Below, in pieces: positions 11,211 to 57,620 of a DNA stretch of 64,000 nucleotides. The notes under the pieces were generated by a model, which had not been told where the DNA came from, ran no database searches, and saw only the letters and a list, made by a program, of their open reading frames with translations. This DNA comes from Vibrio rhizosphaerae. Its GTDB lineage: Bacteria > Pseudomonadota > Gammaproteobacteria > Enterobacterales > Vibrionaceae. Made by a program: the position numbers and the translations under genes. The stretch spans positions 930,001 through 994,000 of the forward strand of contig NZ_AP024903.1 in NCBI RefSeq assembly GCF_024347095.1. Direction: 5' to 3'. The number at the start of each line of letters is the position of its first letter. Position 1 is the first letter of the stretch.

Positions 11211-11448
11211 AAGGACAGGCAGAATAAAAGGGAATAGAAAGGACAGGCAGATTAAGATTTTTCTAACAAGGACAGACGGTTTAAGCAGACGGTTTAAGCA
11301 TCTGCCATGTGGTGTGAGAATGACTGACCGTTAGGAGGACAGGCGCTTTTTCAATTTTTTCTAGGAAGGACAGGCACTTTTTCTAGGAAATTTTACAGGT
11401 CGGTTTGTCGAGGGAGGAGACAGATAATTTTCTTCGCGGGACAGACAC
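11211..11448 (+). repeat. Extragenic cluster of GGACAG-core repeats upstream of ybaN
   Basis: Six copies lie within ~240 nt, all in the same orientation: AAGGACAGGCAG near 11211 and 11239, AAGGACAGACGG near 11268, GGACAGGCGC near 11337, AAGGACAGGCAC near 11366 and GGGACAGACAC at 11438. No ORF is present. Two copies carry a shared flank (TTTTTCTAGGA), which suggests local duplication. Confidence 0.85.
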
Positions 11449-11584
11449 TCCAAGGGAGTCGTGAGTCATGCATCAATCGTGATATGATGCGTGATAACAT
11501 CTGAGCAATGATATTCATTGTTCTTCCTCCCCATCCGCTCTGGGCTGTGATGGGGTTTGCCCCCGGAGAATATCGGTAAGTGCA

Positions 11585-12013
11585 ATGACAACAGAACAAC
11601 AGCAACAAAAGGCATCAGGCATACATCTGTGGGTGTATAAACTGATTGCGGTTATCAGTCTGATTCTGGCAATTATCGGGGCGATTTTACCGGGATTGCC
11701 CACGACAGAATTTGTGATTTTATGTGCGTGGGCCTCGGCAAAAGGTTCTCCGACGATTCATCGTTTTCTCATGTCAAAGCCCTTTTTCCGCAACATGATC
11801 GAGAACTGGCAAAATGGCAAAGTTATCTCCCGCAAGAATAAGATTTTGTCAGCGTTATCGATGTCAGTCTGTCTGCTGATTTTGTTGTTGCACAAAGTGG
11901 CTTTCGTCTGGGTGGCAGTCTCGACCATGGGTATGTTGATCGGGAGTTTCTATATCTGGAGACGCCCGGAAAAAGTGCCGGAAGCTCCGGATCTCAGTCA
12001 GGACGAACATTAA
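11585..12013 (+). CDS. ybaN: YbaN family (DUF454) inner-membrane protein
   Basis: A 142-residue small membrane protein. The diagnostic DUF454 region is LAIIGAILPGLPTTEFVILCAWASAKGSP, followed by FLMSKPFFRNMIENWQ and the second membrane segment (LSMSVCLLILLLHKVAFVWVAV). Three to four transmembrane helices are predicted. Function is unknown in general. The gene stands alone, flanked on the left by forward GGACAG repeats and on the right by the same repeats inverted, as if framed by them. The start ATG at 11585 has only a weak ribosome-binding site. Confidence 0.85.
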   Translation: MTTEQQQQKASGIHLWVYKLIAVISLILAIIGAILPGLPTTEFVILCAWASAKGSPTIHRFLMSKPFFRNMIENWQNGKVISRKNKILSALSMSVCLLILLLHKVAFVWVAVSTMGMLIGSFYIWRRPEKVPEAPDLSQDEH

Positions 12014-12058
12014 GCTCCATGCATTAAAGCTTGCAATGTTAGGGGTTGTGCATTGTGG

Positions 12059-12270
12059 CGTCTGTCCCCGCTATTTTCCCTATTTGTATTCGTTTTCCCA
12101 TTGTGCCTGTCCTCGCAATCAATCGGTAATCCTGCCTGTCCACGCAATCACGTTATTCACTGTCTAGCGTCTGTCCTCGTAATCACAATTACCATATCAG
12201 TCCCTGTAATTCCGTCTGTCCCCATAAGGTCTCCCATCTGTTGGTCTTTCTTATGCCGCCTGTCCTCGTT
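12059..12270 (-). repeat. Extragenic cluster of inverted CTGTCC repeats downstream of ybaN
   Basis: Six clear copies, all in the orientation opposite to the cluster upstream of ybaN: GCGTCTGTCCCC (12059), GCCTGTCCTCGC (12105), GCCTGTCCACGC (12134), GCGTCTGTCCTCG (12167), CGTCTGTCCCC (12212) and GCCTGTCCTCG (12257). Several share a CGCAATCA-like tail. A degenerate copy lies near 12199. Confidence 0.85.
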
Positions 12271-12380
12271 ATGAATGGCAATGAATTGCACATAATTGAT
12301 TCTTTCTTCTCTATCTTTTTATAAGACACTCGTACATAATACGAACGCTAATAATTCTTATTTGTTTTCTGGTGTGTTGT

Positions 12381-14072
12381 ATGACATTAGTGTGGACGTT
12401 ATTAAAGGGAAACACGTTCAAGTTTCTGACGGCAATTCTGTTAAGTGCTTTGAGTGCGGGTGCCGGAGTGGCGGTGATTGCAATGATGAGTCGCGTCTCA
12501 TCAGCGGATGTGATTACCGGTCAGGATGTCGCTTTACTGTTCGTCTTGATTTTCCTGTTATTTGGCTTAAGTTTTTTCTCTCAGGCAATGCTGACATCTT
12601 TGGGCCATCATGTGGTGTATCGGTTGCGACTGCATCTGTCTCAACGAGTGTTAAAAACCTCGGTGGAGCGCATTGATCAACTGGGGCAACCGGCGATTCT
12701 GGCCGCTTTAACTAAGGATGTGACGTCGATTAGTCAGGCGTTTAACAGCCTGCCTTTTGTGGTCTATGGTGCTGCGGTACTGCTGTGTTGTTACGGCTAT
12801 CTGTTGCAACTGTCGTTGCCATTTTTCCTTTGTACATTGGTGATGACTATTCTTGCGGTGGTGATTGCCCGGCAATTGATGTCAGCCTCCAGACAATTGA
12901 AGCGTGAAGTGCGGGAAAACGACGACCAACTCTATGACCGTTATTCGGGTCTGTTGTTGGGGCGTAACGAGTTGAAACTCAGCCGTCAGCGTCGCAGTAG
13001 TTTCTTTAGCGATGGCTTAAAACCGGTTGTCAGCCGGGCATTAGGGCTGGAAGTTAAAGCAGATCGATATACGGTATTAAACGGCAGTTGGGTCAATACC
13101 TCTATTTTGTTGCTGATTGCTTCGATTATTTTGATTCACAGTGTATTTGGGGTCGGAACCAAAGAACAGCTGACCACTTTTGCGCTGACGATTTTGTATT
13201 TACGCTCTCCGCTGGCCGGTATGATTGGTTCATTACCCGCTTTGATTTTAGGTTCGGTCGCTTATGCCAAAGTACAGCAACTGGCATTGCATGAAGGGAC
13301 AGACGCCGTAGGCGAACAGCCGGCGCAGGAAGCATGCTGGCAGTCGTTACACATGCAGAATGTGACCTACCAATACCCGTCAGAATCCGGTGAACCCGGA
13401 TTTGGTGTCGGCCCGATTGATTTTGAACTGAAGCAGGGGGAGCTGGTGTTTTGGGTCGGGGGGAACGGCAGCGGTAAATCAACATGTGCCCGGTTGGTCA
13501 CCGGTCTTTACACGCCCCATGGCGGCAATATCGTATTTGCCGGTCAGGAGATCAATGAAGAAAACCGCGATTGGTTTCTCAGCCATTTCTCGGTGGTCTT
13601 TGCGGATTTCTATCTGTTTAAACAACTGATTAATGAATCAGGGGACAGTCCCGATCCTGCACTGGTTGAGCATTATCTCAAAGCACTGTCGTTGGAACAG
13701 AAAGTGACGGTCACTGAGGGCGAGTTGAGTACCACCAAACTGTCTCAGGGGCAGCGTAAACGTCTGGCACTCCTGCTGGCTTATTTAGAGAATCGCAGCA
13801 TTATCTTGCTGGATGAATGGGCGGCTGATCAGGACCCGGCATTCCGCAAAGTCTTTTATACCGAGTTACTGCCTGAGCTGAAAGCAAGAGGGAAGACAGT
13901 CATTGCGATTACGCATGATGATCACTATTTCTATATGGCTGACAAAATTTACCGGATTGATCAAGGGCATATCATGCTGGACGATGAGCCGCTTCATGGT
14001 CAGTCATCTCAACCTCAGTCATCTCAATCCGAGAACAACGCCTCAGATAAAAAGGAAGACGTCGTATGCTGA
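12381..14072 (+). CDS. Cyclic peptide/siderophore export ABC transporter (PvdE/SyrD type)
   Basis: A 563-residue fused half-transporter: six membrane helices in residues ~1-290 and a C-terminal ATPase. Walker A GGNGSGKST is near residue 360, the signature LSQGQRKR near 453, Walker B IILLDEWAADQD near 474 and the H-loop ITHDD near 510. The atypical signature and the EWAADQDP motif match the cyclic-peptide transporter family that moves pyoverdine or syringopeptin-type products across the inner membrane. It heads an operon with the YejABEF-like importer; its last codons overlap the next gene. A GGACAG repeat copy (13295) lies exactly in the membrane-to-ATPase linker (EGTDAVG). ATG 12381 is preferred to an upstream GTG. 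Confidence 0.88.
   Translation: MTLVWTLLKGNTFKFLTAILLSALSAGAGVAVIAMMSRVSSADVITGQDVALLFVLIFLLFGLSFFSQAMLTSLGHHVVYRLRLHLSQRVLKTSVERIDQLGQPAILAALTKDVTSISQAFNSLPFVVYGAAVLLCCYGYLLQLSLPFFLCTLVMTILAVVIARQLMSASRQLKREVRENDDQLYDRYSGLLLGRNELKLSRQRRSSFFSDGLKPVVSRALGLEVKADRYTVLNGSWVNTSILLLIASIILIHSVFGVGTKEQLTTFALTILYLRSPLAGMIGSLPALILGSVAYAKVQQLALHEGTDAVGEQPAQEACWQSLHMQNVTYQYPSESGEPGFGVGPIDFELKQGELVFWVGGNGSGKSTCARLVTGLYTPHGGNIVFAGQEINEENRDWFLSHFSVVFADFYLFKQLINESGDSPDPALVEHYLKALSLEQKVTVTEGELSTTKLSQGQRKRLALLLAYLENRSIILLDEWAADQDPAFRKVFYTELLPELKARGKTVIAITHDDHYFYMADKIYRIDQGHIMLDDEPLHGQSSQPQSSQSENNASDKKEDVVC
13295..13310 (+). repeat. GGGACAGACGC repeat copy in the exporter linker
   Basis: A single copy, read as G-T-D-A, between the membrane and ATPase domains of the exporter. 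Confidence 0.7.
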
Positions 14073-15913
14073 GAAAAACACTGGGTATCCTGATATTTAC
14101 GTTGGGTTGGTTCTGTCAGCCCGTTTCGGCGGATGAAGTGACTCACGCGGTTTCCCTGTACGGTCAGCCGAAATATCCTGCCAGTTTTGACCATTTTGCC
14201 TACGCTAACCCGAATGCGCCGAAGCAGGGGGAATTGGTGATTGCGGAAATTGGCAGTTTTGATTCACTGCATCAATTTATTAATCTTGGTACCAAGCCCA
14301 GAGGCCTGTTCTGGCTTTATGACAGCCTGACGGATCGCGGTCATGACAAAGATGAAATCAAAACCCGCTACGGCGCATTGGCGGAAACGATCACCATTGC
14401 TGATGATGACTCATGGGTGATCTACCAGCTGAGAAAAAATGCCCGTTTTAGTGACGGACAACCGGTAACGGCTGAAGACGTGGCCTTTTCTGTTAAACAG
14501 TTTCAAACCGTGGGACTGAGTAACATTAAATCCCGTTTTCAGGGCGTGCAGTCGGTCGAGGTGTTAGGACCACGAAAAGTGAAGTTTAATTTTGGTGATC
14601 AAGGCAGCCGTTTACAGATCCTTAATTCCGGTAATCTGCCTGTCCTGCCAAAGCATGTCTGGCAAGGAAAAGACTTCACCAAACCGTCACTAGAGAAGCC
14701 CGTCGGTTCTGGCCCTTATCAGGTTACCTCGGTGATCCCCGGGCGGAGTATTACTTATCAATTACGCGATGATTACTGGGGCAAAGATCTGGCGGTCAAT
14801 CGTGGCAAATATAATTTCAAAACGATTCGTGTCGAATATTTCCGGGACCGTAATGCCGCTGTACAAGCGTTAGCTGCGGGGGAAGTGAATTATATTGCCG
14901 AGTCAAATCTGGCGCGCTGGCAAAAACTCTATCAAGGCAAGGCATTCGATACAGGGACAGTCGTCAAAGACAGGATTGATTATCAGGCACCGTCATTTGT
15001 GACCGCGTTATTGTTCAACCTGCGTGAAGAGAAGTTTGCTAACCCGAAAACCCGTGAAGCTCTGGCGTATGCATTTGATTTTGAGTGGCTGAATAAGCGT
15101 GCCTTTCAGGGCAAATATCAGCGTGCGGAAAGTCTGTTTAACAATAGTTTTCTCGCCGCTGAAGGTCCCATATCTTCCTCAGAAACGGCGGTATTAGCAC
15201 CGTTCAAGCAAGCATTACCCCCCGCCTTGTTCACCGATACCTTTCATTGGCCGACCACTGATGGTTCAGGCAATGATCGGGCGAACCTGATCAAAGCGAA
15301 GCAACTGCTTGAAGCCGCTGGCTGGAAAACTGAGCAGGGTCGGTTGGTTGATGCCAATCATCAGCCCTTTGTGATTCATTTTCTGGTTCCGTCTCCGGCG
15401 ATGAAGCCCGTCCTTGGCGCTTATTTGCAAAATCTGAAGCGGTTGGGCATCGAAGGACAGGTGACGGTACGTACCGGTACGGAATTCTATAAGCAGCTGA
15501 TGCAGCGTCAGTTTGATATGACACCGATTCAATACAAAGTACGCATTCCGCCCAATACCGAAGTCCGTTCTGCTTTATTGTCGTCGTTTGCGGATGTCGC
15601 AACCAGCAACAATATTGCCGGATTTAATGACCCGGTGATTGATGCGTTAGTGAACGATTTAGTTCACGCCGACAGTTATGAGAGAACTGAAGTTTACGGC
15701 AGAGCACTGGATCGCGTCTTGAAATGGAAATATTACTTTGTGCCGTTATGGGCCCGTAACTTCCAGCTCGTCGCACATGCGGATTATATTCAGCGGCCCA
15801 AAGTGAATCCTGCCTATGGTTATGAAATCGAATTTTGGTGGGACAGTCGGAATAGCGGTCGGAATAGCGGGGACAGTCGGAATAAAGTACAGCAGGACAG
15901 CGCCCACCCATGA
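14066..15913 (+). CDS. yejA: Periplasmic solute-binding protein, YejA-like (family 5)
   Basis: A 615-residue peptide-binding protein with a signal peptide (MLRKTLGILIFTLGWFCQPVSA). The mature start HAVSLYGQPKYPASFDHF and APKQGELVIAEIGSFDSLHQF are characteristic of YejA-type SBP_bac_5 proteins. E. coli YejABEF imports peptides such as microcin C; here the genes sit between siderophore export and synthesis, so uptake of the peptide siderophore or its fragments is a reasonable inference. It overlaps the exporter by 7 nt and yejB by 4 nt. The C-terminal ~25 residues (NSGRNSGDSRNKVQQDSAHP) are encoded by degenerate GGACAG repeat DNA and are not part of the family fold. Confidence 0.85.
   Translation: MLRKTLGILIFTLGWFCQPVSADEVTHAVSLYGQPKYPASFDHFAYANPNAPKQGELVIAEIGSFDSLHQFINLGTKPRGLFWLYDSLTDRGHDKDEIKTRYGALAETITIADDDSWVIYQLRKNARFSDGQPVTAEDVAFSVKQFQTVGLSNIKSRFQGVQSVEVLGPRKVKFNFGDQGSRLQILNSGNLPVLPKHVWQGKDFTKPSLEKPVGSGPYQVTSVIPGRSITYQLRDDYWGKDLAVNRGKYNFKTIRVEYFRDRNAAVQALAAGEVNYIAESNLARWQKLYQGKAFDTGTVVKDRIDYQAPSFVTALLFNLREEKFANPKTREALAYAFDFEWLNKRAFQGKYQRAESLFNNSFLAAEGPISSSETAVLAPFKQALPPALFTDTFHWPTTDGSGNDRANLIKAKQLLEAAGWKTEQGRLVDANHQPFVIHFLVPSPAMKPVLGAYLQNLKRLGIEGQVTVRTGTEFYKQLMQRQFDMTPIQYKVRIPPNTEVRSALLSSFADVATSNNIAGFNDPVIDALVNDLVHADSYERTEVYGRALDRVLKWKYYFVPLWARNFQLVAHADYIQRPKVNPAYGYEIEFWWDSRNSGRNSGDSRNKVQQDSAHP
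15838..15906 (+). repeat. GGGACAG repeat tail at the 3' end of yejA
   Basis: Contains GGGACAGTCGGAATAGC repeated with variation, plus AGGACAGCGCC. It encodes the low-complexity tail of the binding protein. Confidence 0.65.
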
Positions 15914-16965: not shown

Positions 16966-18143
16966 GGTTGCAGCAGAAGCAGTTTAAAGTCGTCCGGCGA
17001 GGTAAGTTAGCCGCAGTGCTCCTTGCCATGATTTTCGTCATCAGTTGTCTGTCCCCCTTACTGGCCAATGATAAACCATTGCTGATTGTGTATCAGGGGC
17101 AGTGGTACTTTCCGCTGATCCATGAATATCCTGAAACCGAATTCGGCGGTTTTTTCGATACCGAAGCGGACTATAAAGATGCGTTCGTTGCCAAAGAAAT
17201 TACCCGGCATGGCTGGTGGTTATGGCCTCCGGTGCATTTTTCTTTCGACACCATTAACTACGATGTCAGCTTTCCATCGCCACCTTCCGCGACAAACTGG
17301 CTGGGGGTGGATGATCAGGGACGGGATGTGCTGGCCCGGATTCTCTACGGGACACAAATCAGTCTGATGTTTGCGCTGGGGCTGACCTTGATTGTTGCAT
17401 GTCTGGCCCTGTTTTTTGGGGCTTGTCAGGGATACTTCGGCGGCGTTATTGATCTGATCGGGCAGCGGGTGACTGAAATCTGGGGCGCGATTCCGGCTAT
17501 TTTTATTGTCATGATTATGGCGAGTCTGGTCCAGCCCGGCCCCTGGATACTGTTGCTGATTTTGTCACTGTTAGGTTGGCATCATTTGGCACAGCAAGTC
17601 CGGGCGGAAGTCCTGAGAATTCGCCAGCTTGATTATGTGCAGGCTGCAATCATTGCCGGCGTTGCCGACCGACGAATTATTTTCATCCATATCCTGCCAA
17701 ATGCTGTCGTTGCATTGATCAGTAATCTGCCATTTATTTTTGCCGGGGCTCTCGGTGCGCTGATCACATTAGACTTTCTCGGTTTTGGGCTGCCTGCCGG
17801 TTATCCTTCACTCGGGGAGCTGCTGGCTCAGGGGAAAAATAATTTGCAGGCACCTTGGCTGGGGATGATTGGATGCACCTATATTTTAGTGCTGGTGACC
17901 TCGGTGGTTTTGATTGGCGAGATGGTTCAGGAACTGGCCGCAAGACGAAGTTCCAACGTTGGCTCTAATAGTGGTGTTACGGGGACAGACGCTTTTACGG
18001 ATATGGCGGCGGCGAAAGATGTTACCGGGACAGACACCTCAGTTCGGGCTGATTCTTGCGAGGACAGACACCCGAACGGTTTAACCTCATGCAAGTCTGG
18101 CAGCGAAATCAAAGGGGGAGACAAGCATGCTGAAATGTCATGA
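16962..18143 (+). CDS. yejE: ABC transporter permease, YejE-like, with repeat-derived tail
   Basis: A 393-residue permease of the DppC/YejE group. The large periplasmic loop after helix 1 is typical of YejE (EADYKDAFVAKEIT, then WPPVHFSFDTINYDV and NWLGVDDQGRDVLARILYG). The EAA-type cytoplasmic loop reads AAIIAGVADRRIIFIHILPNA. From about residue 335 the family homology stops. The last ~58 residues (containing VTGTDAF, VTGTDTS and CEDRHPN) are translated GGACAG repeats. The reading frame stays open through these and runs 17 nt into yejF. The true family C-terminus is probably near 17945. Confidence 0.85.
   Translation: MRLQQKQFKVVRRGKLAAVLLAMIFVISCLSPLLANDKPLLIVYQGQWYFPLIHEYPETEFGGFFDTEADYKDAFVAKEITRHGWWLWPPVHFSFDTINYDVSFPSPPSATNWLGVDDQGRDVLARILYGTQISLMFALGLTLIVACLALFFGACQGYFGGVIDLIGQRVTEIWGAIPAIFIVMIMASLVQPGPWILLLILSLLGWHHLAQQVRAEVLRIRQLDYVQAAIIAGVADRRIIFIHILPNAVVALISNLPFIFAGALGALITLDFLGFGLPAGYPSLGELLAQGKNNLQAPWLGMIGCTYILVLVTSVVLIGEMVQELAARRSSNVGSNSGVTGTDAFTDMAAAKDVTGTDTSVRADSCEDRHPNGLTSCKSGSEIKGGDKHAEMS
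17976..18080 (+). repeat. Three GGACAG repeats in the 3' end of yejE
   Basis: Copies at ~17980 (GGGGACAGACGC), 18026 (GGGACAGACAC) and 18060 (AGGACAGACAC). They are read as GTDA, GTDT and EDRH, so two different frames are used within one protein tail. Confidence 0.8.
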
Positions 18144-20261: not shown

Positions 20262-20282
20262 GAAGGAAAGATAGGGATATTG

Positions 20283-20335
20283 AGGGGACTGACGGGATAT
20301 TCCGGGGACAGGCAGATTTTTATCGGGACAGACGA
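20283..20335 (+). repeat. GGACAG repeats between the importer operon and the transposase
   Basis: GGGGACAGGCAG at ~20303 and CGGGACAGACG at ~20324, with a degenerate GGGGACTGACGG at 20284. The remaining ~215 nt to the transposase start hold no feature I recognise. Confidence 0.75.
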
Positions 20336-20551: not shown

Positions 20552-21508
20552 ATGACGATTGCCCGAACACAGCTCGTTTCCCCTGACATCACTTCGTACT
20601 ACCACTGTGTGTCACGCTGTGTTCGGCGCTCTTTCCTCTGCGGTGATGACCCATTCACCGGTATTTCTTATGAACATCGTCGTCATTGGGTTGAGCAGCG
20701 AATTTTGGCTTTGGCTAAAATTTACTGTATCGATATTTGCGCTTATGCGGTGATGAGTAACCATTATCATTTGGTTGTCCATGTCAATCGTGCTAAAGCT
20801 CTGCAACTTTCAGAAAGGGAAGTGATTGCGAGATGGGGGCAAGAACATCAATTCCCACCCTTGATACAATCCTATCTGACTGGGCAACTGTCAGCGTCTG
20901 AATATCCTGCTTGTATGAAATTAATAGCAATTTGGCGTGAACGGCTTTATTCACTCAGTTGGTTGATGAAAGAGCTGAACTATCATATCGCTTTAAGGGC
21001 CAACCAAGAGGATCAGTGTCGCGGGCACTTTTGGGAGGGGCGATTCAAATCTCAGGCGCTGTTAGATGAAAAGGCCTTACTGGCAGCGATGACGTATACC
21101 GATTTGAATCCTGTCCGGGCCAATATTGCTGAAACGCCAGAGACCTCAGAATATACGTCGTTCAAGCGACGTTTTGACGCATTGGAGAATAATCAGGAGA
21201 CCCCTTCAGGTTTGTTGCCATTTATCGGAAATCGATCTCAGCAACAACCGAGTGGTGTGCCATTTCGTCTGATCGATTATATAGAATGGGTGGATTGGAT
21301 CGGACGACAAATACGTGAAGGTAAACCGGGATATATCGATCACAAACATCCTCGTATTATCAGTCGCTTATCTCTGAACCAAATGGATAGCCTCGGTCTT
21401 TACTCCCGACTTGAAAAAGAGCGAGGCCTATGGATTGGCCCCAAACAACGTCTTCAGCATGTGAAGTCTTTGTTGAATCGCCAAAGACTACACGGTATCA
21501 CGATTTGA
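20552..21508 (+). CDS. REP-associated tyrosine transposase-like protein (RAYT, IS200-like Y1 fold)
   Basis: A 318-residue protein. The HUH metal-binding motif is in VMSNHYHLVVHV (about residue 72). A candidate catalytic Tyr is in LMKELNYHIALRAN, followed by the family hallmark RGHFWEGRFKSQALL and YTDLNPVRANI. These are the features of the IS200-related Y1 transposases known as RAYTs, single-copy housekeeping-like enzymes associated with extragenic palindromic (REP) repeats. It sits between the importer operon and the type II thioesterase gene, splitting the siderophore locus. It is framed by GGACAG repeats on the left and inverted CTGTCC repeats to the right of the thioesterase. It may be what disperses those repeats (inference). 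It lacks IS200-style ends that I can identify. Confidence 0.85.
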   Translation: MTIARTQLVSPDITSYYHCVSRCVRRSFLCGDDPFTGISYEHRRHWVEQRILALAKIYCIDICAYAVMSNHYHLVVHVNRAKALQLSEREVIARWGQEHQFPPLIQSYLTGQLSASEYPACMKLIAIWRERLYSLSWLMKELNYHIALRANQEDQCRGHFWEGRFKSQALLDEKALLAAMTYTDLNPVRANIAETPETSEYTSFKRRFDALENNQETPSGLLPFIGNRSQQQPSGVPFRLIDYIEWVDWIGRQIREGKPGYIDHKHPRIISRLSLNQMDSLGLYSRLEKERGLWIGPKQRLQHVKSLLNRQRLHGITI

Positions 21509-22217: not shown

Positions 22218-22264
22218 GTTGTTTCCTCAAATCATTCCATAACGCATCCATTCAATAACCCATC

Positions 22265-22420
22265 TGTCCCACTAAGAAATTCGAAAGTCTGTTCTTGCGA
22301 ATGTTCAGTCGCGCTATGTTCGACTGTCCCGCCAGTACCGTAGAATTTCAAAAGTGCCTGTCCCACTTAGAAGTCCGTCCCGCTGAGACAAGAAGACAAA
22401 AGAAAGGCCGTCTGTCCTCC
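22265..22420 (-). repeat. Inverted CTGTCC repeats between the TE II and receptor genes
   Basis: Copies at ~22265 (TCTGTCCCAC), 22327 (ACTGTCCCGCC), 22357 (GCCTGTCCCAC) and 22409 (CGTCTGTCCTCC), plus degenerate forms at 22290 and 22376. The last copy forms the loop side of the receptor gene terminator. Confidence 0.8.
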
Positions 22421-49200: not shown

Positions 49201-52200
49201 CAGCAAAGCCGTCGCTCCTGCCGCTTCTGCCGATTCAACAGTGGTTCCTCGAACAGCCGCAGCCCCATCCGCATTACTGGAATCAGGCGGTCATGCTCCA
49301 AGTACCGACCCGGATTGTTCACCGGGTGATGAGTCAGGCAGTCGATGCGCTGTTACACAAGCATCCGTTGCTGACGGCACGTTTTGAACATCTGGATACA
49401 CCGGCACAGGCTGGCTATCGTTTGTCGCATGAAACGGCGGCGGTGTATGCCGGATTCGATGGTCAGGATACGGCCGGATTAACCGCGTTGGTGGCGGCAA
49501 CCCAGCAGAGTCTCAATCTGAGCGAAGGACCATTATTCAAAGTGGTCGCCTTTAATCTGGCTGACGGCCGTAGTCAGCTGTTACTGGTTGCGCACCATCT
49601 GGTGGTGGACGGGGTCTCGTGGCGTGTCATTGGCCGGGAATTACATCAGGCCTATCAGCGCTTATTGAATGGGGATGCGGTCACGCTCGGTGAGGAAATA
49701 ACCACCGCTGCCCAGTGGCAGCACCAGTTGCTGGATTTGCCGGATGACAAACTTGTCGCGGCGCAACAATACTGGCAGCCGATGGTTAATCGGTTTGATG
49801 CCGGGATTCTGATAGCCGGCGCTCAGCCCGGTACGATCGGCGCAGTATATCGTCGTCACCAGACATTTTCACCGCAACTGACCGCCCATTTGCTGGGATT
49901 AGGGAGCCTGCATCAGCGCTCGGCTTGTGAAGTGGCGATGCTTGCCGCGCTGACTCAGGCGGTTCAGGTGCAGTTTCCACGGGATCAGCTACTGATTGAA
50001 ATGGAGAGTCACGGACGTTGTCCTTGGCTTGCCGGGCAAGACTTGAGTGAGACCGTCGGGTGGCTGACCAGTCGCTTCCCGGTTCGCTTGGACACTGCAT
50101 CGGAGGATTTAGAGCGCGTCGCTGGCCAACTGGCTGCTGTGCCTGACCTCGGTATCGGTTACGGTGTGTTGCGTTATCTGCATCAACGGCTGGCATTCCC
50201 CGCGCCGCAGATTTTGTTCAATTATCTGGGCCAAACCGGCACGTCCGATATGGACTGGCAGCTGACTGACGGTGCCGGACAAGCGCGCCATCCTGAGAGT
50301 TTGCGCCGCCAGTTGATTGAAGTCACAGCACAAATCCGGGACGGCCAGCTGACGGTGGTTTGGCAGTATCCGCCAGCGCTGAAGCCGCAGCTCGACCCTG
50401 TGGTTGATGCCTTTGAACAGGGGCTTGAACGTGTCTCGTCCTTACAGGGACAGACGCCTTTAGCAGGACAGACGCAGGAACAGACGTTACGGGGACAGAC
50501 GCCTTTAGCATTACGGGGACAGACGCCTTTAGCAGGACAGACGCAGGAACAGACGTTACAAGGACAGACGGCCCAGCCGGTGGCTGGGTATGTGTTGACG
50601 CCGGTGCAGCAGGGGATGTATCTGCATAGCTCTGCGCTGCAAGGGGGGGACTCGGTATATTTCAATCAGACAGCGGTGGCGATTGACGGCGCGCTGGATG
50701 CCGAAGCATTTGTGCAGGCGTGGCAGCAAACGGTTAATACTGAGCAGGCGCTGCGGGCACGTTTTCAGGATAATGCACAGGGTGAGCCTCGCCAGTATTT
50801 TGCGGATCAAGTCACGCTGCCGGTTGAAATGTTGGATTGGTCCGGTGATGACATCACGCAATCGCAGCATCAACAACAGCTGCATCAACAACTGGATGCG
50901 TTTTGTCGGGCTGATCGGGCGCGAGGGTTTGATCTCAATACGCCGCCATTAATGCGTTTGACGCTGATTCGTATTGCGGAGCAGCAGCATTGGTTGATCT
51001 GGAGTCGTCATCATTTGATTGTTGATGCATGGTGTTCGGCTCTGGTGATTCAGGATGTGATGCAGCGTTATCGTCAGGCGATGGGAGATACCGCGATCCA
51101 ACTGACTCCGCGACCGGATTTTTCGATCTATCTCGATTGGCTGGCTGAGCAGGATCTCGATGCGTCTAAAGCGTTCTGGAACAACTATCTGCGTGGATTT
51201 GAAACCCCGGTCGCCTTGCCTTCCGGCTCCGATCGTGATTCATTTGCGTTGTTTGAGCATCGCCTGAGTGAAACGCTTACCTCGGCGGTCAAGTCGCTGT
51301 GTCGGCAGCATGGGGTGACGCTCAATTCGGTGATGCAGGCGGCGTGGGCTTTGACGCTTGCTCATCACAGCGGGCAGCACGATATTGTGTTCGGCATGAC
51401 CACATCCGGGCGTCCTGCTGAGTTACCGCAAGCACAGCGGATTATCGGTATTTTTATTCATACGATCGCGGTGCGGATAAGTTTACAGCCTGATCAGACG
51501 CTGGCTCAATTACTGGCGCTGGTACACCGTCAGGGCGTGGAATTGCGGGAACACGAATGTCTGCCGCTGGTGGAGATTACTGCCCAGAGTGCGTTGGCAC
51601 AAAATGGCGCATTGCGGGGACAGTCGCTTTTTGATGCGCTACTCGTGTTTGAAAATGAAGCGCTCGGCGAGGGGGCAGGCAAGAGCAGTAATAGTAATCA
51701 CGGTTTGTCAGTCACGCCATTGCAGGCTTATGAGCGCAATAATTATCCGCTGACATTGACAGTGATGCCCCATGAAGCGTTGATGTTGCGGATGGGTTGC
51801 GATGGTGAACGGGTTTCTCTTCGGGCAGCCCAGGCCATGTTGGCAACGCTGACACGGGTTCTTTCTGCCTTTACCACCGCTCAGAGCCGTGATGTGCTGA
51901 CGGATATCAGCCGTCAGAGTGTCACCGCTGATGCCGGTTTGCGCGGTGAATCTGTCACGTTGGATCAATGGCATCTCGGAACAGGAATTCTGGCGGACTG
52001 GGCCACGAAACAACACCGTGTGGCGGTGTCTGACGGGAATGGCGAGTTGACTTATGCTGAGCTGCTGGAGCGTGCATTGCATCTTGCGTATGCATTACGA
52101 TGCCGGGGAGTAACGGCGCACAGTCGTGTGGTGGTGTGTCATGCGCGTCAGACTGATATGTTGGTTGCATTACTGGGCGTTTATGCGACCGGTGCCGGTT

Positions 52201-54887
52201 ATGTGCCACTGGATCCGTCCCAGCCTCAAGCTCGTCTACAATTGATTCTGGAAGAGATCTCACCGGATTTGATCCTGAATGACGGCTCGGTGATGCTCGG
52301 TGAGACGGGTCTGAATCACAGTGTGTCGTCACTGATTGCGACCACACCATTCAGTGACGCCGACCGCGAGCAGGCGTTGATGCGTTTGACACAGCAAGAT
52401 CAAGGCTTGGCCTACACCATCTTTACTTCCGGGTCGACCGGGCGGCCGAAAGGCGTTCAGATCCCCCGCTCGGCATTGAGTAATTTCTTGCAGAGTATGG
52501 TGTCGGTGACCGGCATGACTGAGCACGATAAGTTACTGGCTGTGACGACGGTCGGGTTTGATATCGCGGTGTTGGAGCTGTTCGTACCTTTGCTTGTCGG
52601 CGCACAGGTGGTCATTGCTGATGAAACGATGGTGCGCGATGGTGCAGCGTTATCGGTATGTCTGCAACAGCGGGGCATTTCAGTGATGCAGGCAACACCG
52701 ATCACATGGCAGATGTTAATGGAACAACCTGTACAGGATTGGTCACATCTGACCGCGCTGGTCGGCGGGGAAGCGCTGCCGCCGGCATTGGCCGAAGGCA
52801 TGCTTGCCCGCGGTGTGCGTCTGCTGAATATGTATGGTCCGACGGAAACCACGGTCTGGTCATCTTGTGCAGAAATCACCTCTGCCAATATGGCGCAGCC
52901 GCCGCTGGGCCGGCCAATTGCCAATACGCAATTATATGTGTTGGATGCATGGCACCATCCGGTGGCTCCGGGAGCAGAAGGTGAGTTATTCATCGGCGGC
53001 GACGGCGTGTCGCTGGGGTATCTCAACCGGGACGATTTGACCGCCGGAGTCTTCTTGCCGGATCCATTTGCGCACCGTGCTGACGCCCTGATGTATAAAA
53101 CCGGGGATCGGGTCCGTTTGTCGGCCGATGGCGAACTCTTCTATGTCGGCCGGACGGACTTTCAGATCAAGTTACGTGGTTACCGGATTGAGACCGGTGA
53201 GATAGAAGCGCGGCTCGGCGCGATCGACGGGATCCGTGAAGCGGTGGTCAGCCTCTGTTATGCCGGTACGGAGCGAGCCTGCTTAGTCGGATATGTCACC
53301 GTTCATTCAACCGTCAGAGCGCACGACGAAGTGATGAACAGCGATACCATTTTGTCATCACTCAAGCGCACACTGCCTGCGTATATGGTGCCTCAGCAGA
53401 TCGTTTATCTGACACAGATGCCACTCAATGCGAACGATAAGATTGATCGCAAAGCCCTGCCTGAGCCGCAGTTATCTGCGCTTATTTCGACACAGAAAAC
53501 AGTGCCGCAGACTTCGGCTGAGACGACGCTGGCTCAGATTTGGCAGTCACTGCTTGGTGTCGCCACGGTTTATCGGGAAGATGACTTCTTTGCCCTTGGC
53601 GGCAATTCACTGCTGGCCGGCCGCTTGGTAGCCATGCTTCGGCGTCAGAGTGGACTAACCTTGCCACTCACTGCGGTGTTCCGTCATTCTGAGTTACAGG
53701 CACTTGCGCTGCATGTCGAAGCAGAACCGACACCGGATACGGCCGACAAGCCGCAGCATGAGTGTTATGCCGATGCGGAGCGACAGACGGATGCGACGTC
53801 AACTGATACGGCATTGCTGGTCCCGATGAATGCTCAGGCCGAAGCCAATCTACTCACCAGTCAGGCACAGGGTAATGTCTTCCTGCTTCATCCTGCCGGG
53901 GGGATTGTCCGGGCTTATCAGACTATGGTGCAACACTTCGATAACCGTTTCCCGGTTTATGGCATTGAATCCCCGCAATTGCATGGTCTCAGCATGGCAG
54001 ATTCAGCAAATCTGGAGCAACTGGCTGAACGCTATGTCGCACTGATTCGCACCGTGCAACCTCACGGGCCTTACCGTTTGGTGGGATGGTCGTTCGGAGC
54101 GTGGCTGGCCATGGCTATAGCGCACCAGCTTGAAGCGCTCAATGAAACGGTCGAGAGCGTGACCATTATCGATGCGCGGGCTGAGGTGGAGAAAGCACGC
54201 TTGCAAGTCCCACAGCTCAATCGGGTGACGCGTTACTTAGCTTGCCTCAATCATCGCCACCGGGTGTTATTGCTGGAGAATCATCTGGCTGAACTGATAT
54301 CGCTGGAGCAAACGTTAGCAGGACAGACGGCGCAACCGGATCCGGAATCATCAGGGGAGGGATTAGGGCGTCTGTCCCCGCAAGATTCGCCGTCCCCGCA
54401 AGATTCGCAGGGTGTTGAGGCGTCTGTCCCCGTTAGTGACTCGGGTACCATAAGCCCCGAGACAACAGGGCAAGGGTGTCTGTCCTCGCAGGTGTTCGGG
54501 CGTCTGTCCCCGCAAGCGCAGGACTTGTTTGTGTTCGACACACTGGCGCAGTTGCTGGGGGAGACGGCGCTTTTGGATGATGAAGCCGCAGATCGGGCGC
54601 TGCGTTTGATGCAGATGCAGTTGTTGATGCACAGCCATCAGCTCATGCGTGAGCATGTACTGAAGCCGGTTGCCGCGCCGTTGCAGGTATTCTGGTCGAG
54701 TCAGACACTCGATGGTTCTCGTTATCAGCAGGGGGCGGATACCAGTGAGTGGGATTGTTACGGGCAGGTGCAGTCGCAGGTGTTCTCCGGGGATCATGAC
54801 AGTATTGTGCGTGATCCGCATGTGGCTGAGCAGATCCTCGTCCGTATTCAACGTTTGGCTATCGCTGTCAGTGATGAACTGAGCTGA
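40242..54887 (+). CDS. NRPS 3: C-A(Ser)-T-E-C-A(Asp)-T-T-E-C-A(Gly)-T-TE
   Basis: A 4881-residue synthetase. Residues ~1-50 are a TubC-like docking domain (LLAELFQRDIHLRLEDGKL). Module 5: C (~77, HHILVDHWS ~212), A (TSGSTGKPKG ~729; code DVWHFSLID(K), Ser), T (LGGDSI ~1127), E (SAIQHWFL ~1186; HHLIIDAVSW ~1323). Module 6: C (SPAQQGMYFH ~1718), A (~2392; code DLTKIGHIG(K), Asp), tandem T (LGADSI ~2808 and LGGDSI ~2917), E (~2996; SHGR ~3255). Module 7: C (TPVQQGMYLH ~3453), A (~4062; code DILQLGMVW(K), Gly; A10 motif NANDKIDRKAL has Asp for the usual Gly), T (LGGNSL ~4452). The TE has VFLLHPAGG (~4546), nucleophile GWSFGAW (~4616), an acid in IIDARAE and His in GDHDSIV (~4851). Many repeat insertions, including ~70 residues in the TE. 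Confidence 0.93.
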   Translation: MSIAVLLAELFQRDIHLRLEDGKLKVDAPKGALTAEVKQTLQARKADMIAHLAQQQPSRTWPVLTQVSRTDDALPLSFAQERMWFLQQFEQASGQYNVNALLAVQGQVDLALFQQVFGQLVAEHEILRTSFSAAADGRPAAHIHTAQAIMDAWQIREIDLCATESPQAADVAYQAALKAAMSEPFDLAQPPLFRLTHLKCASGASQLLLTFHHILVDHWSLQNLTRMMVEKASQLMARSLTGQVMAGASNSPQAASPAFQYIDYAQWQKQLLSGETYEQLMTYWCNTLESGDYHLELPMRCSAEALSGTTNNGSVGEDDGARYHFSLAPTDYQQLKRVCETYRMTPYTVLLAAYQWMLSQRTGQQDIRVACPVAERALPEFENMLGLFVNTLVIRAQLSTDTTAETWLQTVHQALTGAQSHSAMPFEKLVDALVSTRDISHEPLAQSMFNYLEQSSSAPIRLGQMVIESLPVPEFTAKYDLSLFAVHQNQQLALSFQYRTACYRGEDVARLAQCYLTALRDLLQCLAGEPTRPLRTMSGLSDSEWQTLWQWNQTEQPAFLPPQLAHATLGEAFAGQARQTPQQRALVFTQTTPQGLQEVCWDYQTLSHKVNQLAHWIRKQGVAPESRIAICMPRSAQMVVSLLATVQAGCAYVPVDPEHPAQRLAFIVQQARPSLLLTVPELDHFTHTFAGDLPCHVLDDDWSLVAQEATDWQVPNQTEPDHLAYVLFTSGSTGKPKGVAVPHVGVMNRILWMQDQYPLNGTDVVLQKTPYSFDVSVWEFFWPLMVGATLVVAPPDAHKDSQTLVDLIRQHTVTTLHFVPTMLQAFLDHQHVTACTSLRRVFTSGEALSFALKERFFSLFSCQLHNLYGPTEASIDVTYWDCSTPCPAIVPIGYPIANMQTWILNAELNPVPVGVAGELYLSGPGLARGYLGRDDLTEQAFIANPFYEDYKDRRLKAGHANEDTRWYARLYRTGDLARYREDGSIEYLGRTDFQVKVRGLRIELGEIEAAILALDFVKEVLVTAPDQQTLAAYVVIEGDEPDWAQWQTLLASHLPAYMIPAVFVRLDAMPVNANGKADRKALPAIDLARQNAGAYVAPQSPREAQLAQVFADVLRLKTVSVEDNFFALGGDSIMSLQVVSKARAVGLAIEPKQVFRYATVRALAAVAQVSEQADFSAERYYGDAPVSAIQHWFLSQNLPNPDQFNQAVLLTSTAVIDPALVEQTLVRLLQVHPLLAARFSRNSDGQWIQSIPRPNQISAEQLAFQSLEWQVSADEPLQPRIDQLCQQTQSALSLSEGPLFRAVLVRIAEDATANCSYRLLLVAHHLIIDAVSWRILLEALHQGYLCLQEMALPGQTLLQGQTPQPMALPDGIFQAQTLPYKGWTEQFAARFGSAASFGGQTVLEQDLPGQTTDPSVTEQYTGLEAWQAWTAQPDVQQALQVTYPLAEQPLFPQQPAGIAAMERFELSPHTTQTLFERIAPAVKANGEEICLTALAYALWQWSGQPHHLIQLEGHGRDQLDLDVSQTLGWFTRIYPALISAPATADQPWQQALLSNRVALSHNPERGQAMPFLPIQSRLSELSPARWQPTLVFNYLGQLDLPSTSRDGAALFSKAPEVLSAFRDEQNPRHWPIEINAFVQHGQLVINVQYAAQWLPQVQAQRLATLLADSLESLAQSREIAAGAIAADYPLAKVSEAQVQAIVRQAEHQGMSVEDLYPLSPAQQGMYFHCLDHPDAYISQSVVTCRGPLHPAYFRQAWQQAVNRHTALRTRFICDGVDEPHQLVQQPLRGQSSQGQALQGQTPQVPLVFDEYDASALTEAERQQQLHRLQQQARTQLDLEQAPLMRLALVRWPDTADGQANYRLIWTIHHLIMDGWCLQRLVGEVMADYRALVKGESLPGTAGSAYRDFIAWLAESERATDAKAYWQRALAGFEQGKSLPAPVADASVRSDTTFHSQSLGESLSAALTSWARTQGITLNTVIQGLWGLVLSRYLATDDVVYGVTTSGRPADLANADGIMGVFINTLPLRLRIEADTLLGDWLAALQDQNLNMRDYEQTPLANIQRYAALSGSGPLFDSLLVFENLPVSDSTPIDGLSLSLDAHHVENNFPLTLRVVPRTNLQFDLLINPQQVDAGRMPGLVSQLIGWIERVVADPHSPQQSLMNLIRRWSEAECSGAVPASLGALSHVTSVPSEHALARIQTQPSEATALAFHSGQDSLTQWSYQTLLSQAGQLAQQLPEINRDGVNRTERGSEVPVVAICMPRQTEQIVAMLAAWYQGAAWVCIDPELPFSRIQHIIDDAQPAYVIGGEVPSWASDWGDGRWGVCPRNESSGDWGVCPRNDVPRNDADQARVHHACAWIDITKLSRCAGVTTAPVSPLPRLTAQDTAYLVYTSGSTGKPKGVQVSHGNLLSYVDALFERVPLTPDASMTTFATVAADLGFTCVLASLCSGRTLRLLPPNDYFDPEALAGRLAQHPVDVLKIAPSHLKALLAVAEPQRLLPQQCLIVGGESLDASLWAQLQALAPTMTLINHYGPTEATIGCCATEIRSADDLGSIGTPLANGVAYVVDDAGLPVANGVAGELWIAGAGVAKGYLNQPDNTARQFSRTDILGLSDDSVGLPLYKTGDRVMRGAQGELRYLGRQDDQVKIRGFRVELGEVSATLQDLPEVEEAVVLAVDGPSGQRLAAAVRLAPCEDADPRRLKQLEIALEALLPDYMVPRLWQALTQFPLQKNGKLDRQALTSCLLASMVTPSLSEVGSPSLPDTDSAATAQTDGEPALPTATAIHEVLGDLWQRLLNVRPQAEDNLFTLGADSIICLQFIAKARQHGLKLTPKQIYAAPTIAALTALLAEQTAESGGAAAKITPVECKTPVHAPSMAEPSAEASATVAGTPSVTETLQSLWAALLRQPVSVDDNFFTLGGDSIIALQLVARARQHGLVITPKMLYATPTIAELAVTLGETAPPSAGAESAAVAAETSVQTPDTDTASAKPSLLPLLPIQQWFLEQPQPHPHYWNQAVMLQVPTRIVHRVMSQAVDALLHKHPLLTARFEHLDTPAQAGYRLSHETAAVYAGFDGQDTAGLTALVAATQQSLNLSEGPLFKVVAFNLADGRSQLLLVAHHLVVDGVSWRVIGRELHQAYQRLLNGDAVTLGEEITTAAQWQHQLLDLPDDKLVAAQQYWQPMVNRFDAGILIAGAQPGTIGAVYRRHQTFSPQLTAHLLGLGSLHQRSACEVAMLAALTQAVQVQFPRDQLLIEMESHGRCPWLAGQDLSETVGWLTSRFPVRLDTASEDLERVAGQLAAVPDLGIGYGVLRYLHQRLAFPAPQILFNYLGQTGTSDMDWQLTDGAGQARHPESLRRQLIEVTAQIRDGQLTVVWQYPPALKPQLDPVVDAFEQGLERVSSLQGQTPLAGQTQEQTLRGQTPLALRGQTPLAGQTQEQTLQGQTAQPVAGYVLTPVQQGMYLHSSALQGGDSVYFNQTAVAIDGALDAEAFVQAWQQTVNTEQALRARFQDNAQGEPRQYFADQVTLPVEMLDWSGDDITQSQHQQQLHQQLDAFCRADRARGFDLNTPPLMRLTLIRIAEQQHWLIWSRHHLIVDAWCSALVIQDVMQRYRQAMGDTAIQLTPRPDFSIYLDWLAEQDLDASKAFWNNYLRGFETPVALPSGSDRDSFALFEHRLSETLTSAVKSLCRQHGVTLNSVMQAAWALTLAHHSGQHDIVFGMTTSGRPAELPQAQRIIGIFIHTIAVRISLQPDQTLAQLLALVHRQGVELREHECLPLVEITAQSALAQNGALRGQSLFDALLVFENEALGEGAGKSSNSNHGLSVTPLQAYERNNYPLTLTVMPHEALMLRMGCDGERVSLRAAQAMLATLTRVLSAFTTAQSRDVLTDISRQSVTADAGLRGESVTLDQWHLGTGILADWATKQHRVAVSDGNGELTYAELLERALHLAYALRCRGVTAHSRVVVCHARQTDMLVALLGVYATGAGYVPLDPSQPQARLQLILEEISPDLILNDGSVMLGETGLNHSVSSLIATTPFSDADREQALMRLTQQDQGLAYTIFTSGSTGRPKGVQIPRSALSNFLQSMVSVTGMTEHDKLLAVTTVGFDIAVLELFVPLLVGAQVVIADETMVRDGAALSVCLQQRGISVMQATPITWQMLMEQPVQDWSHLTALVGGEALPPALAEGMLARGVRLLNMYGPTETTVWSSCAEITSANMAQPPLGRPIANTQLYVLDAWHHPVAPGAEGELFIGGDGVSLGYLNRDDLTAGVFLPDPFAHRADALMYKTGDRVRLSADGELFYVGRTDFQIKLRGYRIETGEIEARLGAIDGIREAVVSLCYAGTERACLVGYVTVHSTVRAHDEVMNSDTILSSLKRTLPAYMVPQQIVYLTQMPLNANDKIDRKALPEPQLSALISTQKTVPQTSAETTLAQIWQSLLGVATVYREDDFFALGGNSLLAGRLVAMLRRQSGLTLPLTAVFRHSELQALALHVEAEPTPDTADKPQHECYADAERQTDATSTDTALLVPMNAQAEANLLTSQAQGNVFLLHPAGGIVRAYQTMVQHFDNRFPVYGIESPQLHGLSMADSANLEQLAERYVALIRTVQPHGPYRLVGWSFGAWLAMAIAHQLEALNETVESVTIIDARAEVEKARLQVPQLNRVTRYLACLNHRHRVLLLENHLAELISLEQTLAGQTAQPDPESSGEGLGRLSPQDSPSPQDSQGVEASVPVSDSGTISPETTGQGCLSSQVFGRLSPQAQDLFVFDTLAQLLGETALLDDEAADRALRLMQMQLLMHSHQLMREHVLKPVAAPLQVFWSSQTLDGSRYQQGADTSEWDCYGQVQSQVFSGDHDSIVRDPHVAEQILVRIQRLAIAVSDELS
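43091..43136 (+). repeat. GGACAG repeat in the Ser A domain of NRPS3
   Basis: AAGGACAGACGCCTGAAGGCG followed by a degenerate GAGGACACACG, read as KDRRLKA in the third forward frame. The insertion lies just before the YRTGDLARY motif. Confidence 0.75.
44296..44335 (+). repeat. GGACAG repeats in the first E domain of NRPS3, site 1
   Basis: Two cores (CGGGACAGACGC, AGGGACAGACAC), read as PGQTLLQGQTP. Confidence 0.85.
44432..44482 (+). repeat. GGACAG repeats in the first E domain of NRPS3, site 2
   Basis: Two cores (GGGGACAGACGG, CGGGACAGACG), read as FGGQTVLEQDLPGQT. Confidence 0.85.
45601..45652 (+). repeat. GGACAG repeats in the second C domain of NRPS3
   Basis: GGGGACAGTC, AAGGACAGGCG and AGGGACAGACGCC at ~18-nt spacing, read as RGQSSQGQALQGQTPQ, between the N-terminal strand and the HHLIMDGW site. 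Confidence 0.87.
47203..47290 (-). repeat. Inverted CTGTCC repeats inside the Asp A domain of NRPS3
   Basis: Two copies of GGGGTGTCTGTCCCCG(C/T)AA type and a decayed CCCCCGTAACGACG unit, read as WGVCPRN twice and then DVPRND. They lie upstream of the P-loop motif, where Cys-rich sequence is not expected. Confidence 0.87.
50441..50572 (+). repeat. Dense GGACAG array with a perfect 44-bp direct repeat (E-C linker, NRPS3)
   Basis: Six cores between the second E and third C domains. A 44-bp segment at 50447-50490 is repeated exactly at 50516-50559, an in-frame period of 69 nt, showing expansion by tandem duplication. Read as QGQTPLAGQTQEQTLRGQT and so on. Confidence 0.92.
54311..54522. repeat. 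Mixed-orientation repeat array inserted in the terminal TE domain
   Basis: One forward core (AGGACAGACGG, read as AGQT) is followed by four inverted ones ((G/T)CGTCTGTCC(C/T)CG; RLSPQ, SVPV, CLSSQ, RLSPQ) and a partial PSPQDS unit. About 70 residues are inserted between the TE nucleophile region and its catalytic His, in what should be the lid or a nearby loop. Confidence 0.88.
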
Positions 54888-54920
54888 GTGATTGGCTGAG
54901 TGGGGATGTGCCTCAACAGA

Positions 54921-54946
54921 AGAGCCCGGCAATGCCGGGCTCTGTC
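54921..54946 (+). terminator. Terminator-like hairpin after the NRPS operon
   Basis: A perfect 10-bp stem AGAGCCCGGC / GCCGGGCTCT with a 3-nt loop, 34 nt past the NRPS3 stop. The downstream T-tract is weak (TGTCATC). The remaining ~265 nt to the next gene hold AT-rich promoter-like DNA and nothing else I recognise. Confidence 0.65.
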
Positions 54947-55212
54947 ATCGATGGGGTGGTATCAACGCATCGATTTTCAATCGGATGCAAATATTTACCG
55001 CTTGGATAGCTGAGTCGTTGCTAGTTATCTCGATTAGAAACCATATAAAATGAGGGGTGATGCATATAAATAATAATATGCCATACATTTCATATGTTTG
55101 TTTTGTTATGCTCCCTTCCCGGTTGAAGGTCTTTATTGTCTTGTATTCTTTATCGTCACTTCTGTTGTAGCCATATCATCCATTTCTTAGATTTCACTCA
55201 TGGAAAATAATT

Positions 55213-56616: not shown

Positions 56617-56662
56617 TATCCATTGCGTTGATTAACACCCATTCAGTTGATTAACCCTGTTC

Positions 56663-56702
56663 AACCTGTTTCTGAGTTCATCACCCGGAAACAGGTTTTT
56701 TA
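56663..56702 (+). terminator. Rho-independent terminator
   Basis: A perfect 10-bp stem AACCTGTTTC / GAAACAGGTT with a 15-nt loop and a following T-run, 46 nt after the PPC-like protein stop. Confidence 0.85.
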
Positions 56703-56845
56703 TATCGAGGGTCATGATAAACCGCTTGGGGGATACATGATGGGTGATCGCTCAATTGCCATTGCCCGCATCCGATGCCGATGGTTCAAATATTCGCATG
56801 ATCGTCCGGTGGCGGCTGGTATCAAACATCATCCGACCCATAGTG

Positions 56846-57445
56846 TCAGAAAAATTTAATCGCACCGCGGCCGCCAACCACGTCATGCTCTGTGGGTTGG
56901 GATTTGTCTGTGGGCGTTTTCTTTTTCGGGTTTTTGTCGGCAAGATGGTTATTGGGGACGGGATTCTTTTCCTGCTCAGGCTGATAATGTTTGCCAATGA
57001 TCAGTGCATTGTGATTGGTTTTTCCCTGTTTTGACGGAGGTGCCTTTTTGTGCGCCGACGTTTTTTTCGCCCGGTTATTTTTGCTTTGACGCGGTGAAGC
57101 ATGCTCTGAAGCGGTTGTCTGAGGTGCCTTTTTACTCGCTTTTTTCTGTATGGCGTCAGGCGAAGCAGGCTCAGCTACCGGGACATCACAAATCACCAGA
57201 TAGTATTCACCGTTAAACTCGACGAGATCACCGTCATAGATTTTACAGCGTTTACGTCGTTCGACCTCTCCATTGACCACCACATATCCTTCAGCAATCG
57301 CATACTTGGCTTCTCCGCCACCGCTGAGCACATTGGCTAATTTCAGAACTTTATAGAGTTCGATGGGCTGATGGTTGACTTCAATGCCAATCGCTTCGAT
57401 TTCAATTTCTGTCGCTTCATCAGCGTGGTTGTCATGGTTTTGCAT
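56846..57445 (-). CDS. S4-domain RNA-binding protein (YbcJ-like) with basic tail
   Basis: A 199-residue protein from ATG 57445. Residues ~10-80 form an S4 domain of the YbcJ type: IEVNHQPIELYKVLKLANVLSGGGEAKYAIAEGYVVVNGEVERRKRCKIYDGDLVEF. The C-terminal ~100 residues are a very basic, low-complexity tail (KKASKKAPQ, KNNRAKKTSAHKK, KKKTPTDKS), probably disordered and nucleic-acid binding. YbcJ itself is only about 70 residues, so the tail is an extension. The longer frame to 57559 has no supporting ribosome-binding site. Likely role: RNA or ribosome binding. Confidence 0.78.
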   Translation of the reverse strand: MQNHDNHADEATEIEIEAIGIEVNHQPIELYKVLKLANVLSGGGEAKYAIAEGYVVVNGEVERRKRCKIYDGDLVEFNGEYYLVICDVPVAEPASPDAIQKKASKKAPQTTASEHASPRQSKNNRAKKTSAHKKAPPSKQGKTNHNALIIGKHYQPEQEKNPVPNNHLADKNPKKKTPTDKSQPTEHDVVGGRGAIKFF

Positions 57446-57546
57446 AGCTAAATTCTGAGAGGTGATTTTGGGGAGAGTGTATCGGTTTGCCGTCACAAGT
57501 GACAGTGCTATTGATCGAAAATAGCAGAATGAACAGGAATCAGTGA

Positions 57547-57620
57547 TGGGGACAGGCACTGTGGGTTCTTTTCGTTACGGAAAGGTCACGGGGACTAGAA
57601 CGTTACGGGGACAGACGCTA
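57547..57620 (+). repeat. GGACAG repeats between the S4-protein and chemoreceptor genes
   Basis: GGGGACAGGCAC (57549) and GGGGACAGACGC (57607), with a degenerate GGGGACTAGAACG between. This is the rightmost cluster of the repeat field; none is seen from here to the right edge. Confidence 0.8.

Follow-up and report, generated by a model that had tools for sequence, protein, structure and literature searches.

A short, stop-free DNA word forms a local cloud around a RAYT gene in Vibrio rhizosphaerae and takes different dialects at related loci

A short repeat is dispersed through genes and spacers of a 64,000-nt stretch of the V. rhizosphaerae genome (contig NZ_AP024903.1, positions 930,001 to 994,000; hereafter the window), and a gene for a REP-associated tyrosine transposase (RAYT) stands inside the cloud of copies. 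RAYT genes and words of this type occur in association here and at related loci. The words most likely belong to a RAYT system with local dialects, in a subclass for which no repeats have been reported, and the repeat in the window is probably the cognate word of the RAYT at 20552-21508, spread locally by this resident gene.

Allowing one mismatch, we found 70 copies of GGGACAGACG in the window against 3.36 expected by shuffling (shuffle maximum 7), in line with the roughly 70 copies of a preliminary description made from the letters alone. Exact GGGACAGRC occurred 47 times versus 0.80 expected (100 shuffles, maximum 4). These shuffles, together with the reversed patterns, rule out a chance origin of the repeat. 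The original split of about 50 intragenic and 20 extragenic copies had to be revised, as 59 of the 70 lay in likely genes and 11 in spacers. The looser pattern RGACAGNCR gave 90 copies (71 genic and 19 in spacers), some of which are due to chance because the reversed pattern gave 13; since 95% of 11.2-57.7 kb is coding, the spacers are several-fold denser in this pattern. The outermost copies of GGGACAGACG were at 11269 and 57617 with all 70 in between, so that the confinement to 11.2-57.6 kb described earlier held inside the window but not beyond it, where the cloud resumes at 996.4-996.5 kb and the word recurs near other RAYTs. The core contained no stop in any of the six frames, as first stated, with readings GTD, GQT, DRR, ASV, RLS and VCP, plausibly a permissive feature for entry into genes. 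A unit of about 18 nt that keeps frame had also been proposed. In the NRPS genes this was borne out for the 22 sense spacings below 60 bp, all 22 of which were divisible by 3 (12 to 48 nt), but not for antisense spacings below 60 bp (1 of 4), and 18 nt was the commonest repeat unit, not the sole one. Logos gave an extended unit, TTA-nn-RGGACASACRC-C-n-TTA/TAA. Arrays in the window were mainly in direct orientation, and no hairpin was found in a single unit, four single units folding no better than shuffles. A known RNA was discarded as the identity of the repeat (no Rfam match at gathering scores, no tRNA and no tmRNA), and a literature search with the repeat letters returned unrelated papers only. 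The RAYT gene and the groups of words are located as follows, in window coordinates.

11269..12222, both strands: words in both spacers bordering the DUF454 gene, in both orientations
13296..13305, + strand: word in the ABC exporter gene (12372-14072), between the membrane and ATPase domains
14954..15879, + strand: three GGGACAGTCG words in the solute-binding protein gene (14066-15913)
17982..18070, + strand: three words in the additional C-terminal tail of YejE (gene 16962-18143)
20285..20334, + strand: words upstream of the RAYT gene, on its strand (GGGACTGACG, GGGACAGGCA and GGGACAGACG)
20552..21508, + strand: RAYT gene, protein P0001, 318 aa, with NHYH, WE and YTDLNP motifs; probable owner of the words
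22261..22418, - strand: words downstream of the RAYT gene, on the opposite strand, 750-910 bp off and past a hydrolase ORF
28915..29011, + strand: five words, read LAGQT, in the NRPS1 linker between A and PCP
31043..31118, + strand: three words, read LTGTD, in a loop of NRPS1's second adenylation domain
33382..33481, - strand: three antisense words, read RLSPQ and SVPA, in NRPS2's first condensation domain
35227..36142, + strand: six words in NRPS2, read GTD
38526..39105, + strand: two sets of three words in an NRPS2 adenylation domain
44300..44474, + strand: four words within an NRPS3 condensation domain
47210..47255, - strand: two antisense words within an NRPS3 adenylation domain, read VCPRN
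50447..50570, + strand: eight-word array between NRPS3 condensation domains, read LAGQTPLAGQT
54320..54510, both strands: one sense and three antisense words near the NRPS3 C-terminus, past the thioesterase match
57608..57617, + strand: spacer word, the last of the cloud inside the window

The ORF at 20552-21508 is a RAYT, as judged from weak profile matches, the names of its homologues and a predicted model. Its product, P0001, scored 38.7 bits (E 8.5e-10) against NCBIfam REP_Tyr_transpos, under the cut-off of 80, and 20.5 bits against Pfam Y1_Tnp, under the cut-off of 23; its homologues are called RayT by one source, and 7998 of 8000 scored candidates match. A sequence search for solved relatives returned none at E 1. 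The best solved match of the predicted model (pLDDT 83) was the E. coli TnpA_REP structure 4ER8 (E 2.6e-4, TM 0.59 by target length), which was also its sole PDB match at E 0.001 or better, with IS200/IS605 transposases next, and in this model the protein appears to have the Y1 transposase fold. P0001 carries the HUH motif and the Y---NP motif of RAYT/TnpA-Y1 proteins (HUH, single tyrosine), and the N, H, Y, H and Y, D, L, N, P residues were invariant across 24 aligned homologues. A profile search found no HTH family in it at E 0.001, an HTH-like C-terminus being a trait of subclass 2.1 TIRYT proteins. RAYT homologues (E 1e-10) were present in 32 of 99 sampled genomes of the genus, with up to about 20 copies, and the genome of the window (G000) has four, R1 in the window, R2 (C1:1217 kb), R3 (C2:533 kb) and R4 (C2:958 kb), at 61-69% identity to P0001. 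Bertels and colleagues (2017) have reportedly classified RAYTs. Quentin et al. (2018, PMC6006769) characterise subclass 2.3 of TnpA-Y1 by a median of 325 aa, NHYH, WE and Y-DLNP motifs and the presence of several diverged copies in a genome. Judged against Table 1 of that paper by length (~325 aa), motifs (NHYH / WE / Y-DLNP) and copies, P0001 agreed on each point, and its length and motifs fit subclass 2.3. IS200 was considered as the owner of the words and rejected, because the five Y1_Tnp matches in this genome (C1:1.69-2.44 Mb and C2:673 kb) do not lie near the cloud; these five IS200-type transposase copies (L001-L005) have equal scores and 157-aa frames.

Short words of the form RGACASNCAY stand in inverted orientation on either side of RAYTs of this kind. 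We surveyed the flanks of the best 80 of at least 581 confirmed relatives, all named loci, from Vibrio, Photobacterium, Grimontia, Enterovibrio, Marinomonas, Paraglaciecola, Pseudoalteromonas, Colwellia, Microbulbifer and others. At these best 80 of at least 581 loci, RGACASNCAY words within 500 bp upstream numbered 100 on the same strand versus 1 on the opposite strand, and those within 500 bp downstream 4 versus 86. An inverted pair within 500 bp was present at 49 of the 77 loci that had at least 200 bp on both sides among the best 80 of at least 581, while 69 of the 77 had one word or more and 8 had none. The density of GACASNCAY, 37 per 10 kb within the first 250 bp, dropped to 12.9 between 250 and 500 bp, to about 3 between 1 and 2 kb and to 1.0 between 7 and 10 kb, whereas that of the reversed pattern was flat (0.6-1.3 per 10 kb, best 80 of at least 581 loci); this figure is partly circular because the motif was picked after viewing these loci, although the orientation was not picked. 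A single fixed motif for all relatives was abandoned, as RGGACASRC gave 91 matches versus 53 reversed in the best 80 of at least 581 loci, and this led us to adopt the looser RGACASNCAY. In the window itself, words were present within 500 bp upstream of the RAYT and none within 500 bp downstream; a hydrolase-like ORF (21522-22217) sits between the gene and its downstream words, and at most related loci the downstream words lie 200-500 bp from the RAYT gene, unlike the 750-910 bp observed here. At six loci (L072, L074, L077, L086, L101 and L128) other words were the top enriched 9-mers, for example GGCACCGAT with 16 copies in L077 and GACTAACTG with 10 in L128, and these are perhaps other local repeat families.

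The words differ between RAYT loci. Many of these genes are surrounded by scattered copies of their own dialect, which is far less frequent in the remainder of the two genomes searched. A dialect was readable at the flank in 74 of the best 80 of at least 581 loci. Words of the own dialect at 0.5-10 kb numbered 103 in 1.15 Mb, compared with 13.7 when dialects were swapped between loci (sd 4.4, maximum of 2000 draws 38) and 8 for reversed words; any own word at this distance was seen at only 32 of the 74 loci, and three or more at 13. Across the genome of the window (4.56 Mb, two contigs), the motif search proposed in the preliminary description gave counts above the control, with GGGACAGRC occurring 134 times versus 45 for the reversed pattern and 47 times in the window, which is 1.4% of the sequence. 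The word GGGACAGACG occurred 47 times versus 5 reversed, and 0 to 10 times in each of 36 other genomes of the genus searched, most of them not above control. Of these 47 in the window's genome, 41 had a RAYT no more than 50 kb away, a zone that makes up 8.8% of the genome, and R1 accounted for 34. The other dialect, GGACACACRC, occurred 40 times versus 6 reversed, with 28 of the 40 within the same 8.8%, 22 of them at R2, and 12 more than 50 kb from every RAYT. When sites less than 1 kb apart were merged, 24 of 30 and 17 of 29, respectively, were near a RAYT.

In ten neighbourhoods of about 40 kb each, taken from three genomes (G000, G010 and G092), the dialect at the flank, GGACAG or GGACAC, also prevailed over the other outside the flanks in all ten, with margins from 36 versus 3 at R1 down to 14 versus 6 at R2; the flank majority was thin at R4 and at C2:645 kb of G092. 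Two RAYT-free stretches held 1 and 0 copies, and at R2 the reversed control CAGACAGG (7) was as common as the minor-dialect word GGACAGAC (6). G010 contained 66 copies of GGACACACAC versus 8 reversed, grouped at its own RAYTs. At two of its loci (L050-L051, C2:479036-499589) GGACACACAC is found in 34-bp tandem arrays and in inverted pairs with strong hairpins, unlike the window, and two inverted pairs from this genome folded at z -6.9 and -6.6. On a tree of 96 RAYTs, which left out rows without a readable word, short proteins and five loci, dialect letter N changed 18 times (minimum of 1000 shuffles 32) and letter R 10 times (minimum of 1000 shuffles 15); letter S is only weakly tied to the tree, because its 22 changes compare with a shuffled mean of 28 and a minimum of 20. 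Near R2, one word at C1:1226682 reads GGACACACGC in the genome of the window and GGACAGACGC at the same place in three relatives, and L161:499-3394 (C1:1238498-1241393) contains internal repeats of several hundred bases with overlapping matches in relatives. At R2, where the alignments were messy, we found no single unit cleanly inserted opposite an intact empty site.

Within the NRPS and YejE proteins, the words coincide with extra residues added in frame. YejE has 393 residues here versus 347 in V. mangrovi, with 89% identity over the aligned part, and the difference is the tail carrying the GTDA, GTDT and DRH words. In the NRPS1 adenylation loop we counted 50 residues, compared with 39 in V. 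ruber and 22-25 in six other homologues. For the A-PCP linker the window's protein has 78 residues, V. ruber 58, V. mangrovi 50 and three further homologues 37-40; it is 110-111 in the two most distant homologues, which are poorly aligned there. Three control spans of NRPS1 had the same length in all eight. Arithmetic on Pfam coordinates indicated that the groups at 31.0, 33.4, 39.0 and 44.3 kb add approximately 28, 51, 47 and 48 residues within condensation or adenylation domains, and those at 38.5, 42.5 and 47.2 kb approximately 6, 0 and 14. The alignment of NRPS and YejE with relatives, likewise proposed at the outset, thus found V. mangrovi and others with fewer of these residues or none, and the same residues encoded by unrelated codons were not seen in these two proteins.

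Two relatives (G209 and G199) contain the region together with the RAYT and most of the words; their DNA is 82.8 and 82.7% identical to that of the window. They are 97.1% identical to each other and together are almost one observation. The DNA of the words is conserved beyond what the proteins need. Words were fully identical in 73% of 67 ungapped cells (9 others were gapped) versus 22% of random 9-mers, an excess smaller than it appears because a neutral word that is still exact in the window would be identical in about 43% of cases by estimate. Words chosen from the relatives' side were identical in 36 of 45 and 33 of 40 cases, compared with 12 of 68 control tripeptides, and identity reached 69 of 73 at fourfold sites in word codons (59.5% of 4964 elsewhere) and 31 of 32 at twofold sites (79% elsewhere), figures that the aligner may bias by favouring words. 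Gain and loss of units are concentrated at words, as 14 of 20 indels of at least 6 bp between the two close relatives lay near a word, in 7.7% of the alignment, and so did 33 of 70 between the window and G209. The arrays, the length changes of about 12-36 bp at words and the sharing of most words across about 83% DNA identity would also fit an old seeding by the RAYT, after which slippage and recombination between tandem words built the arrays without the enzyme. We regard this as unlikely, since the excess identity at fourfold sites and among words chosen from the relatives' side, the latter nearly a single observation, argues against it.

The strong conservation could instead mean that selection maintains the words, either because another protein binds them or because they make useful linkers, and that the RAYT happens to use the same word; dispersed copies could also mark a chromosome region. 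This seems very improbable, because words read in several frames and on both strands are unlikely to serve one protein function, and because the dialect switches with the RAYT locus inside one genome. Least probable of all is a horizontal transfer of the entire 11-58 kb segment, RAYT and words included, from a donor rich in words, which would suit the presence of the NRPS (E 1e-200 or better) in just 3 of 227 genomes of the genus, its own included, but is opposed by an R2 cloud in DNA syntenic with three relatives at about 80-93%, by clouds of different dialect at the RAYTs of one genome and by a V. mangrovi YejE that matches so closely and lacks the tail.

For the spread of the word by its resident RAYT, we infer from sequence an enzymatic writing and an action in cis. 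Y1 enzymes are described as cutting and rejoining single-stranded DNA (PMC6006769). The RAYT would do so at the word, after which short repair synthesis or template switching may copy it, along with a few bases on its flanks, both in tandem and into sites close by. The bias towards the surroundings of the own gene could come from an enzyme acting in cis, or from donor and target on a shared replication fork, and selection would purge frame-breaking copies and leave words in spacers, linkers, loops and tails. The extended unit and the tandem duplication near words are consistent with such a mechanism without proving it, and the arrays could have grown via slippage.

Several known systems resemble this one in part. 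P0001 is like subclass 2.3 in length, motifs and the several diverged copies per genome, yet the 2018 survey reports no repeats for subclasses 2.1 and 2.3 by automatic or manual search, nor any REP-like sequence for 2.3 (PMC6006769), whereas at most of the related loci studied here the gene is flanked by inverted words, and at some a local cloud surrounds it. In TIRYTs, as described in PMC3733652, a tyrosine transposase gene lies between inverted repeats with GGGGWSAS, some of which form moderate families, and this TIRtron consensus fits GGGGACAG. The gene is flanked by inverted repeats here too, at 49 of the 77 loci, although these are short words and not long TIRs. The excerpted TIRYT description gives no gene-centred clouds, dialects within one genome or invasion of neighbour genes as found here (PMC3733652), and PMC6006769 assigns the 26 described TIRYTs to subclasses 2.1 (20 of 26), 2.2 and 2.5, none to 2.3. 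With RAYT-REP and REPIN systems the window shares a RAYT and cognate short repeats, each enzyme having its own family (PMC6006769; see also PMC3116915), and inverted pairs occur in G010, though direct arrays prevail in the window; unlike them, the words have no GT[AG]G tag in their logos and no hairpin in a single unit, and are concentrated near the gene and largely in coding DNA. In-frame palindromic repeats such as the Rickettsia RPEs are likewise inserted in protein genes, but PMC3733652 describes them as palindromic, CGTC-tagged and without a known dedicated transposase, while here a RAYT is at hand. The preliminary description was thus right to set the repeat apart from REPs in form, as a short, stop-free, non-palindromic repeat inside coding DNA, but not in enzyme family; it overlooked the RAYT gene within the cloud, the same-form words flanking RAYT relatives and the fact that the local restriction tracks RAYTs.

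These findings bear on what RAYTs do and on how REP-like repeats spread, and they link a RAYT subclass reported to be repeat-free with short words. It is possible, if on balance doubtful, that subclass 2.3 RAYTs are local DNA writers, each copying and continually rewriting its own dialect of about 10 nt across the surrounding tens of kb, coding DNA included, with several private territories per genome; the loops and linkers of neighbouring megasynthases would then be remodelled in frame by an enzyme and not by random indels. The several dialects per genome provide built-in controls, and the local spread makes specificity and cis action directly testable. The findings also reveal a way for giant enzymes to acquire new loops and linkers with the reading frame kept.
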